Below, one piece after another: positions 3,672 to 9,988 of a DNA stretch of 29,262 nt. Source of the DNA: Chromera velia. Taxonomy: Eukaryota; Sar; Chromeraceae. The notes under the pieces were generated by a model, which had not been told where the DNA came from, ran no database searches, and saw only the letters and a list, made by a program, of their open reading frames with translations. The position numbers and the translations under genes were made by a program. Positions within the stretch are counted from its first letter, which is position 1. Each line of letters starts with the position of its first letter. The stretch covers positions 1-29,262 of the forward strand of contig JAHBMJ010001554.1 in NCBI GenBank assembly GCA_018398765.1, in the 5' to 3' direction.

Positions 3672-6613
3672 CTAGTAGGCTTCCAGATGGTACCGGTGCT
3701 CGTCCCTCATTCTCTGAATGACGTCGTGGCCATCCGTCCTTCCCAGCATCTCTGCGCCCTGGAAGAGAGCTGCCTCCATCTGCTGGCAGACCTGCAAGAA
3801 GGCAGCATCGCAGGGACACAGGGGGGGATAATCATTCATGCAGACAATGGAAGGGAAGGGAACGAGACCTTCCACACCTGTACAGAATCTTGTGCCACAC
3901 AGTTAGAAAGGACCACAGCGAATAACCATGATCTCTCGTCCCCCCATCACATTTTACAACATCATTTCACTCCGCGTCCCCCTGCACTATCCCAACAAAC
4001 CAAATCATCCAAAGAAGCAAACAAGCAAGCAGGAACGCCGGCTAACCTTTCCAGCGGCCCCACAGTAGAAGAACTGGCAGTTGGGTTTTTCGAGAAGTTC
4101 CCAGATCGCAGCGCGGCCCTCCACGATCTTGTCGTGGATGTACACCTGCACACACACACACAGACACATAATCAGACCATGAATAAATCAAAGGTCAGAA
4201 CATGTCCGTAGGCACTCGAAGAGCTCCAAGACACACACACAAAGAAAGAAGAGTACAGAGGGAAACGTACAGAAAAGACAGAAAGACCCTCTCATGCACT
4301 CCCTGACAAGCAAACCTTCTTCTCGCCATCCCTTGAGAACGCCACGTATTCCTCTGCCCCTCCCGAGTGCAGGTCCTCAACGCACACGAAGTCCTTCGCC
4401 TTGTGCCGACACCCGTGGATCACCACACAGTTGCCCTGGATGCCCCTGCAGACACACCGCAGATTTGATAGAAGAGGTGAAAGATAAGAGAAGCACAAGC
4501 TAGTTGGTCACAACTTTGGAACGAGGCTGGCGGGAGAACAGCCACACATCCAGGAAACGTACCGGAACAGGACGAGGCTACAATTTAGACGAAGAAATGA
4601 CCATCAAGGCGCCAAATGAAGCGAAGCAAAAGCAAGATGGAAAAAAGAAAGGAGAAAAAAAGACTCGAGTCCATAGGCAGTGTCTGTGATTGATTGACCT
4701 GTCAGCTCTCTCCAGCATAAAGGACCGGACAGGAGCGAGGCCTGTACCGACAGAGACAGCCACCAGGGGCGTTGAGGGGTCCTCAGGGTAGTTGAACACA
4801 CCCCGTCGGAGACGCACAGCGATGGGCCTTCCCTGAATCATCTCATAGGGTCTGCACAAGGACGGAAAGAGGGGAAGGGAGGATGAACAGAGAGAAAAAA
4901 AGACAAAACGCAGTGCGTGAAAGATAACCGACAGTTCCTTCTGTGCTTTCAAACAGAACAGACGGATGCCGGGGAGCTCATTTGAATTTGAACTCTTTCG
5001 AGGAACGGGAAGGAAGGAAGAGAAACATTGACATTTAACCAAAAAGAGAAAGCAGCCTCCCCTCCCTTCCTCCCTCCCTCACGCACCCGCACATGAACGA
5101 GGTCGCCAGTCCTCCTGCGACCTTTGCGACAAGGAGTTCCAGCTCTCGGGGGTTCCTCGTGCTGGACGAGGCGATCGAGTAATATCTGCACGTGCACGCA
5201 TCAGGGAGGGAGGGAAGCAGGCAGACAGAGACGCAGGTATAGGGGAGGAAGCAAAAGTCAGGCTGAAACGACGCTAAAGGACGAGACAAACGCAGTACCA
5301 CAACTTTCTACGCCGCTTCATTTTTCATTACCTGACAATGCAATCATATCAAGCTTTTCTGTCTGACTCCTTCATGCCTGATTCAAATACTAAAAGATCA
5401 TCCTGCCTGCCTGCCTGCCTGAAAAAATCTCTGGCTGATATACATACCTCGGTTGAATAGGAGGTGAGAGCGAGACGATCTGGCTGATTGAGTAGACCCC
5501 CTTGGGGATCATCATCAACGCCTCCCCGTGAGTGCGCACTCCTGGAAGGAAACCGCTGTCAGGCTTCAGCAGACGTCGAACCCCGTACCCAACAGGACCC
5601 GAGAGGTCGACGAACTGGCTGAATAGACACCGGACCTGCATCATTTGGGAGAGAGAGAAAGGGACGGAGAGAGAGAGAATTGGTGATGTGATGAAAACAG
5701 AACGATTCAAAACACAGTGGTGTGGATTGGTGTCGAAGGCACAGGAAAGGACGAAAAGAAAAGGAGTGAATAGAGAAAGGCCATGAAAGATACACGCAGA
5801 AAGAAAACAGCAAAGAATTTTTCAGCCTTGATAATTGACGCGTCGAGAAGAGAGAGGAGGTCCGAGGAGCTTCGCTTCAAATCCATCCATCGAATACCGG
5901 CCTACCGTCATAGGTTCTGCAGGATATTGTCTGACGGGGTCTTGCGACTTCACCGTCACCAGCGCGTCTGCGTCCCACTCGAAGTGATTCAGGACAGCGT
6001 CGACTTCTGCAGGCACATTGCAGGGCGCAATTCCGATGTGGTCCCCTGTCCTGTAGTGGAAACCGTTCTCTTCTCCCTCCTTGGGTGGGGGGGGAAGGTC
6101 CTTGTTGCAGTGTGCGAAGTGGAGAAGTGAGGGGTTCATGGAAGGAAGGACCGGGTTGTGGGGGGCAGAGAAGCGCAGGAGGAACTGCTCGGGGGAGTAC
6201 CCCTCAGGGGTCAACTGGCGGGACTCCGAGATGAATGCCTCAGAGAAACCTGCAGGAAGGAGATAAGGGATGTGGAACGAGAGGGATAAGAAAGAGAGAC
6301 TGAAGATTTGAAAGAGGAATCTCGAATGAACCCAGAGACGGAAAGAAAAGGCCCAAGACAAGTCAAGTGCTCTGCCAAACGAAATACCCAATAAACTCAA
6401 AAACAAAAAAAAAAAAAAAAAAAGGAATGCAGACCTACCGAGAGGCAGACGGGCCCCGGACTCCTCCACAAGTCTGGCGGTCACGTTGTGGAATTCTGTG
6501 AAAGGCTGTACGTCCACTGGAGTGCGGGGGTGCCACTTCAGGTCCTCCCCCGAGACGGGGGAGTGGACAGGGGGGTGCTGCTCTGCGACTCCGTGGCCAT
6601 GCTCGGCAGGAAC
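3672..6613 (-). other. Reductase half: FAD and NADPH domains of CPR/sulfite-reductase type (exons 8-15)
   Basis: Exon 8 is a low-similarity linker. Exons 9-11 form the FAD domain: AFISESRQLTPEG start, YRTGDHIGIAPCNVP (607-621, the usual YxxGDhlgV.P.N motif), RYYSIASSS (719-727, FAD/isoalloxazine motif) and GLATSFM (about 744-750). Exons 12-15 form the NADPH domain: VGTGLAPVRSF (786-796), HGCRHKAKDF, AFSRDGEKKVYIHDKI, FFYCGAAGKV, ending in RYHLEAY with a terminal Tyr918, as in sulfite reductase flavoprotein and ferredoxin-NADP reductase, where the aromatic residue stacks on FAD. Only about 108 residues separate GDH from RYYS, fewer than in CPR, so the connecting domain is reduced. No flavodoxin sequence lies between the hydrogenase tail and this module. 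Best match by eye is the FAD_binding_1 family rather than plant-type FNR. Confidence 0.9.
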
Positions 6614-9600: not shown

Positions 9601-9988
9601 AGGGAGTGAAGATTGCCCCTGTCGGGCACACTTGCAGACACCTCCCGCACTTGATGCACGTGTCGGCATCGAACCCGCTCGCAGGTGGGACTGTGCGACT
9701 AACAGGGCACACCAGTTCGCATGCCCTGCACTCGATGCAGACTTTGCCGTCGAATGCGATCGCCACATCTTCTTCCTTGTTGAATGGCGTCGGGGCTGAG
9801 TGCGCAAAGTCTTTGAACTCTCCCCTTGCCAGTGAGGCAGTGGACTGGTATCGCACCTGAGCGATCCTACTCACTGCAGGCAGGAGTCGATGGGCGGAAC
9901 CGCACACCATCGCAGCCAGGTGGCGTGTGGTTGGAAGAAGCGCCGGAAGCTGCCGAAGCGGCCCCCGACACGTAAATTGTCGAAGCAT
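3672..9988 (-). CDS. [FeFe]-hydrogenase fused to a CPR/CysJ-type FAD-NADPH reductase, 15 exons
   Basis: Exons in transcription order: 9988-9587, 9393-9136, 8949-8874, 8576-8457, 8172-8015, 7684-7490, 7112-6873, 6613-6439, 6249-5906, 5635-5448, 5185-5087, 4851-4699, 4445-4316, 4145-4047, 3791-3672. All 14 introns are GT-AG, most with GTGAGT/GTTAGT-like donors and pyrimidine-CAG acceptors. The 2757 spliced nucleotides give 918 residues plus TAG with no frame break. The ATG at 9988 is the first ATG after an in-frame upstream TGA. Domain order: presequence (1-50), 2x[4Fe-4S] ferredoxin domain (about 80-125), H-cluster domain (about 140-480), linker (about 484-544), FAD-binding domain (about 545-752), NADPH-binding domain (753-918). 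Inferred role: electron transfer between NADP(H) and protons/H2 in mitochondria or a derived organelle. Eukaryotic [FeFe]-hydrogenases fused to other redox modules are known (Blastocystis with flavodoxin, Nyctotherus with NuoE/NuoF-like parts). Fusion to a flavodoxin-less CPR module is the odd feature. Very sure of both halves; sure of the fusion from continuous frame and splice phases, but no transcript has been seen. Confidence 0.93.
6873..9988 (-). other. Hydrogenase half: presequence, ferredoxin domain and H-cluster domain (exons 1-7)
   Basis: The N-terminus (MLRQFTCRGPLRQL...) is rich in Arg, Leu, Ala and Ser with almost no acidic residues, and R46-Y-Q-S-T resembles a matrix-protease site. 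Ferredoxin motifs: CIECRACELVCP (Cys84, 87, 90, 94) and CIKCGRCLQVCP (Cys111, 114, 117, 121), two [4Fe-4S] clusters as in short M2-type enzymes. H-cluster signatures: L1 TSCCPAW (211-217; Cys213 the expected proton-relay Cys, Cys214 a ligand), STCMSPQ (233-239), L2 MPCVAKKDE (267-275; Cys269 ligand), the hallmark GAGKIFGNTGGVMEAA (323-338), and L3 VMNCEGGCVNGPGQP (404-418; Cys407 and Cys411 ligands). The small-subunit-like tail ending LFHTHYH closes the domain in exon 7. All four cluster-ligand Cys are present, so an active enzyme is expected if maturases HydE, HydF and HydG exist elsewhere. Minor oddities: Asn in place of the usual Ala in L3, and a short spacer between L2 and the TSREL segment. 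Confidence 0.95.
7184..7208. repeat. (GAAA)n tract in intron 6 of the hydrogenase-reductase gene
   Basis: About six copies of GAAA on the plus strand, TTTC on the coding strand. It adds to the pyrimidine-rich character of these introns. Confidence 0.85.

Follow-up and report, generated by a model that had tools for sequence, protein, structure and literature searches.

A putative FMN-free [FeFe]-hydrogenase–NADPH reductase fusion encoded in the Chromera velia genome

The 'long' hydrogenases, in which a NuoG-like part, the [FeFe]-hydrogenase HydA and a CysJ-type reductase are joined in the order NuoG-HydA-CysJ, are reported from the anaerobic protists Trimastix, Paratrimastix, Trichomonas, Pygsuia, Stygiella and Pelomyxa in the accessible portions of two studies (PMC10703272, PMC10579272), which propose NAD(P)H-dependent H2 formation for them. 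Here we analyze a nuclear gene of Chromera velia on contig JAHBMJ010001554.1 (C1552), whose predicted product resembles these enzymes in placing a CysJ/cytochrome P450 reductase (CPR)-type reductase after HydA in one chain. The window analyzed is the whole contig of 29,262 bases, from a genome of 177.8 Mb in 4040 contigs. We propose, with a probability of about 58%, that the gene encodes a single polypeptide composed of a presequence, two [4Fe-4S] clusters, an H-cluster domain, a flexible linker and a flavin adenine dinucleotide (FAD)/NADPH reductase, in which electrons would pass from NADPH through FAD and the [4Fe-4S] clusters to the H-cluster without flavin mononucleotide (FMN).

Splicing of the window sequence on the minus strand (9988..3672) joins 15 exons into 2757 nt, a single frame of 918 residues plus stop, as the first-pass annotation of this DNA had claimed. 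All 14 introns are of the GT..AG type; intron 7 measures 259 nt and the remaining 13 range from 170 to 377 nt. The product is identical over its full length (100%) to UniRef A0A0G4GU65, an 'Uncharacterized protein' of 918 residues from Chromera velia CCMP2878. Other annotators thus arrived at the same exon model, which is agreement rather than transcript proof. The single N in the window, at 14544, lies outside the gene. The features of the gene, all on the minus strand, are as follows:

3672..9988, minus: whole gene model, 15 exons, 918 residues (splicing; identity to UniRef A0A0G4GU65)
9988-9587, 9393-9136, 8949-8874, 8576-8457, 8172-8015, minus: exons 1-5
7684-7490, 7112-6873, 6613-6439, 6249-5906, 5635-5448, minus: exons 6-10
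5185-5087, 4851-4699, 4445-4316, 4145-4047, 3791-3672, minus: exons 11-15, stop included
9824..9988, minus: putative mitochondrial presequence, residues 1-55, with 8 Arg, 0 Lys and 0 Asp/Glu
9611..9757, minus: two [4Fe-4S] ferredoxin motifs, residues ~78-126 (CIECRACELVCP, CIKCGRCLQVCP; Pfam Fer4-type matches, alignment)
7077..9357, minus: H-cluster domain Fe_hyd_lg_C, residues 147-415, exons 2-7 (Pfam, alignment, structure match)
6894..7049, minus: Fe_hyd_SSU, residues 425-476, exon 7 (Pfam)
6614..6872, minus: intron 7, between the hydrogenase and reductase halves, with a strong donor and a weak CACAG acceptor
6439..6613, minus: exon 8, residues 484-541, a linker at the position of the relatives' flavodoxin (FMN) domain
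4758..6064, minus: FAD-binding half of the reductase, residues ~604-783, exons 9-12 (YRTGDHIGIAPCN, RYYSIASS; Pfam, alignment)
4053..4757, minus: NAD(P)-binding domain, residues 784-877, exons 12-14, with the NADPH motif AFSRDGEKKVY at 838-848
3672..3791, minus: last exon, encoding the C-terminus RYHLEAY with an aromatic terminal residue

The hydrogenase half matches Pfam Fe_hyd_lg_C over residues 147-415 (E 1.3e-68; 231.7 bits against a cut-off of 22.1), covering profile positions 3-245 of 245. In the alignment, the H-cluster cysteines are kept in all three motifs: L1 (FTSCCPAW), L2 (SVMPCVAKKDE) and L3 (VMNCEGGCVNGPGQP). The best solved relative of this half by sequence is the HydA subunit 8a6t_A (E 8.4e-80), and its best NCBIfam match is group A6 (370.5 bits; cut-off 765). 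The structure comparison took in the hydrogenase half alone, so that the missing reductase in its match list carries no meaning. A second PF02906 gene of the genome, on C2174, was considered as a further hydrogenase and rejected: its letters read SHCPGW and VMPCFDKKLEA, which we take to be NAR1/IOP1-like.

The second half contains FAD_binding_1 (E 3.7e-19) and NAD_binding_1 (residues 784-877, E 1.3e-8) domains of CPR/CysJ type, and its best solved relative by sequence is the cytochrome P450 reductase 5urh_A (E 9.1e-25). The Pfam search thus recovered all three domains expected from the first-pass annotation, bearing out its order of an H-cluster domain followed by CPR/CysJ-type FAD and NADPH domains. 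The Chromera stretch AFSRDGEKKVYI aligns with AFSREQAHKVYV in solved CPR chains, presumably the site that holds the NADPH 2'-phosphate, and this alignment supports the preference for NADPH suggested earlier. At this site, 8 of 21 aligned hydrogenase fusions, Chromera included, have Arg, 12 have His and one has neither. The connecting domain of the Chromera reductase is ~20 residues shorter than in its relatives (alignment), which suggests that it may be adapted to the absence of FMN.

Pfam detected no flavodoxin (FMN) domain (Flavodoxin_1) in the protein, which has an FAD domain alone rather than the FMN and FAD domains that diflavin reductases such as CPR and CysJ combine in one chain; there is also no flavodoxin match on the contig. 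The order of HydA and reductase recurs in other fusions, but all 21 other hydrogenase–reductase fusions listed add a flavodoxin, a difference on which the first-pass annotation was silent. No second FMN-less HydA–reductase fusion was found among the best 120 of 270, the best 120 of 263 or the best 120 of 7995 matches. The predicted structure has pLDDT values below 50 across residues 478-528 and 535-546. The genome encodes a second CysJ-type FAD/NADPH reductase on C3423 (~76,680-79,900, plus strand, L108/L109), a contig without a flavodoxin match, with a seemingly unrelated gene upstream; it is perhaps a stand-alone FMN-less reductase.

Phylogenetic analyses of the reductase separated hydrogenase- and pyruvate:NADP+ oxidoreductase (PNO)-fused reductases, Chromera included, from bacterial CysJ-like, CPR and P450-fused reductases on a 100/100 branch, so the parallel with PNO drawn in the earlier annotation is apt. 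In a tree that omitted P0020, P0064, P0231, the masked piece of C55 and eight rows from bacteria, 19 of 20 hydrogenase-fused reductases, including that of Chromera, form one group without PNO (98/94). The reductase of P0122 instead pairs with that of the C. velia PNO candidate (96/92), apart from other hydrogenase fusions, a grouping that hints at a second, independent fusion. The Chromera reductase nests with two FMN-bearing fusions, at 98/92 in a tree using 18 of 80 bacterial loci and at 91/80 in the tree with the omissions listed above, for which the tree program warned of long branches meeting; on removal of these two rows it took a basal position among the hydrogenase reductases (quick tree, support 62). 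The first reductase tree had CPR and P450-fused outgroups alone, and alignment A1 (45 sequences) omitted P0064. The latter, a protein of 1448 residues in EukProt, is a hydrogenase-flavodoxin-FAD fusion with an added PF00211 domain, which we take to be an adenylate/guanylate cyclase domain.

We tested five groupings and could reject none: the 21 FMN-bearing fusions as a clade that leaves out Chromera (p 0.265), Chromera with the PNO and P0122 reductases (p 0.077), all 22 hydrogenase reductases as a group without the C3423 row (p 0.383), a single fusion clade for HydA (p 0.232), and a sister pairing of the Chromera HydA half with that of P0122 (p 0.133). Because of this, and because the finer placement in the trees is unsure and long branches meet, loss of the FMN domain after the fusion, rather than its absence from the start, is our preferred reading and not a result. 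We found no HydA match by tblastn in any of the 80 bacterial loci fetched, which were the best 80 of at least 487 as judged by reductase similarity.

We identified candidates for all three hydrogenase maturases in the genome. The HydG candidate consists of four collinear pieces on C2903 (147.5, 92.5, 83.7 and 69.6 bits), whose sum of 393.3 compares with a cut-off of 312.15. The HydF candidate on C3543 scores 88.1 bits and has on the same strand a PF18133 piece above its cut-off; PF18133 matches 1 of 14 control genomes. The HydE candidate on C2974 gives pieces of 80.9 and 40.0 bits, and HydE is the best NCBIfam match for 417 residues of its frame, at 120.3 bits with the next at 44.0. A PNO candidate on C2141, running from 80,229 down to ~66,100 on the minus strand, contains successive pieces that match POR_N, flavodoxin and the FAD/NADPH domains.

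Per 40 residues, the N-termini of the fusion and of the HydE, HydF and HydG candidates have 5 Arg and at most one acidic residue; none shows a strongly hydrophobic segment (the best mean over 12 residues is 1.11). Complex plastids need a signal peptide on imported proteins. As judged from sequence, these N-termini suit a mitochondrial presequence better than a plastid signal peptide, and the fusion may accordingly be mitochondrial. Gould and others (PMC6732389) report expression of PNO and of HydA, HydF and HydG in C. velia under aerobic growth, in accessible text that does not give the domain order. The available parts of another study (PMC6668581) describe C. velia as lacking complexes I and III and the canonical mitochondrial pyruvate dehydrogenase, with an NADP-linked isocitrate dehydrogenase replacing the NAD-linked one; a word search of its main text returned no word starting with 'hydrogenase'.

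We propose that NADPH would pass a hydride to FAD, which may then deliver single electrons straight to the N-terminal [4Fe-4S] clusters, these standing in for FMN. From the clusters electrons would reach the H-cluster, where protons would be reduced to H2. In ferredoxin-NADP reductases, FAD electrons go straight to iron-sulfur clusters, and the Chromera protein may work in this way. The direction of the reaction is likewise conditional: NADPH-driven H2 formation requires a low H2 pressure, as follows from established redox potentials, and at high H2 the reverse, an H2-driven reduction of NADP+, would be equally possible. The reaction type has a precedent: a bacterial HydAB is reported, in the portions of the study available (PMC7311640), to produce H2 at 2.2-40.2 Pa with NADH and no ferredoxin.

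Several observations weigh against our proposal and are considered here with the alternatives. The acceptor of intron 7 is the worst of the 14, with a leave-one-out score of -3.3 against a range of 1.5 to 14.3 for the rest, and reads CACAG where all 13 others read TGCAG. Read-through into this intron would meet a stop four codons on (...EFSVSLS*), and the stretch MMLSQ immediately ahead of exon 8 supplies two ATGs in frame, 5 and 4 codons before the exon. These features would fit two products, made from two genes or by alternative splicing: a 487-residue hydrogenase ending just past Fe_hyd_SSU, and an FMN-less reductase of its own that begins at this pair of ATGs. We think two products unlikely, as the intron 7 donor is the joint best of 14, the intron is of ordinary size with scant room for a promoter, the best-scoring alternative acceptor nearby (6544, 69 nt downstream) likewise keeps the frame, and the database model is identical. 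Moreover, because its relatives are fused in the same order, a fusion of HydA and reductase in one chain is likely, presumably from a single transcript. The draft state of the genome might also suggest that the FMN domain was lost through an assembly or annotation error. This is scarcely credible, as the gene is free of N, intron 7 is too small to hold a 140-residue domain, no flavodoxin match occurs on the contig and the connecting domain is shortened too.

Given one fused chain, its FAD half may not feed the H-cluster directly, electrons being carried by a separate flavodoxin or ferredoxin shuttle or coming chiefly from reduced ferredoxin. Single electrons are usually carried by FMN in this reductase family, and in diflavin enzymes FAD without FMN is a less ready single-electron donor; furthermore, nine flavodoxin-type pieces occur elsewhere in the genome, and the two N-terminal clusters offer a natural docking place for ferredoxin. 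The precedent of ferredoxin-NADP reductases and the shortened connecting domain argue the other way, and we hold such a shuttle to be improbable. A hydrogenase half that has ceased to make H2 and serves as a sensor or in another redox role is very improbable. In a HydA tree that used every third (33 of 99) of the listed non-fusion hydrogenases, the HydA domain of Chromera sits on a very long branch (2.36) and falls outside the other fusions, and its score for NCBIfam [FeFe]-hydrogenase group A (TIGR02512), 339.4 bits, is below the cut-off of 405.95. The L3 letters are unusual, with CEGGC in 3 of 121 proteins, Chromera included, by a pattern that gave no hit or a wrong one in 3 of the 121; we rejected the altered L3 as proof of inactivity, as CEGGC does occur in these proteins. 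Against such a role, the L1-L3 cysteines are kept, the genome has maturase candidates, and its NAR1-like protein is encoded by a separate gene. The single HydE, HydF and HydG pieces all score below NCBIfam cut-offs, as expected because the genes were searched exon by exon; the models also match in control genomes (HydG in 7 of 14, HydE in 12 and HydF in 14), exceeding the cut-off in one each.

Our preferred reading remains the fused chain with direct transfer from FAD to the clusters. The description 'self-contained NADP(H):H2 oxidoreductase' in the first-pass annotation exceeds the evidence, as the FMN domain usual in such fusions is missing. We tentatively suggest that an FMN-free single-chain NADPH hydrogenase in the mitochondrion of this oxygen-producing alga might act as a minimal redox valve for mitochondrial NADPH, alongside a respiratory chain without complexes I and III. 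If this is true, the FMN relay of this reductase family would be dispensable once an iron-sulfur acceptor is tethered, which would offer a simple plan for an NADPH-driven hydrogenase.

Elsewhere in the window, positions 13493-15920 hold a degenerate (CTGT)n array of ~608 copies, in which three forward frames stay open for hundreds of codons; we saw no sign of a gene there, in the course of searches not aimed at one. Tandem repeats at 11850-13142 form two arrays, one with a unit of 188 bases and the other with a unit of 200, and a frame at 23005-23397 matches PIN_4 weakly, at 16.3 bits against a cut-off of 21.9.

The Chromera protein can be compared with several known systems. One of them is P0122 (1330 residues), which we take from the style of its identifier to be from Cyanophora paradoxa: it shares HydA, FAD and NADPH domains and a near-identical NADPH motif (AFSRDGPKKVYI), but contains a flavodoxin and has no Fer4 match listed. 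PNO likewise joins an iron-sulfur enzyme to the same reductase group, but has a pyruvate:ferredoxin oxidoreductase (PFO) domain in place of HydA, and a flavodoxin; Pfam detected no PFO domain in the Chromera fusion. Ferredoxin-NADP reductase, as an FMN-free FAD and NADPH module with an iron-sulfur partner, resembles the arrangement in Chromera, but is a separate protein, whereas the Chromera sequence is of CPR/CysJ type. Nyctotherus-type ciliate hydrogenases also carry a fused pyridine-nucleotide module, which in the accessible text is of the NuoE/NuoF (complex I) type (PMC4967309, PMC6993867), unlike that of Chromera; in this protein Pfam found no NuoE/NuoF-type domains. Unlike the long hydrogenases, the Chromera protein has no NuoG-like N-terminus (Pfam found no such match, just the ferredoxin motifs) and no flavodoxin; its connecting domain is shorter, its N-terminus resembles a presequence, and it belongs to a photosynthetic alga. 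The emphasis that the first-pass annotation placed on the fused pyridine-nucleotide port is right for this protein, but enzymes of the kind are already published for several protists, as the available portions of that work indicate. We found no description of the Chromera architecture in the literature searched, in which coverage of subscription papers is thin. Fusions of this kind are known; what is new is the absence of the FMN and NuoG parts together with the presequence-like N-terminus. Because both the NuoG-like N-terminus and the flavodoxin were looked for and are absent, the Chromera fusion is a variant related to the long hydrogenases and not a full member of that group.

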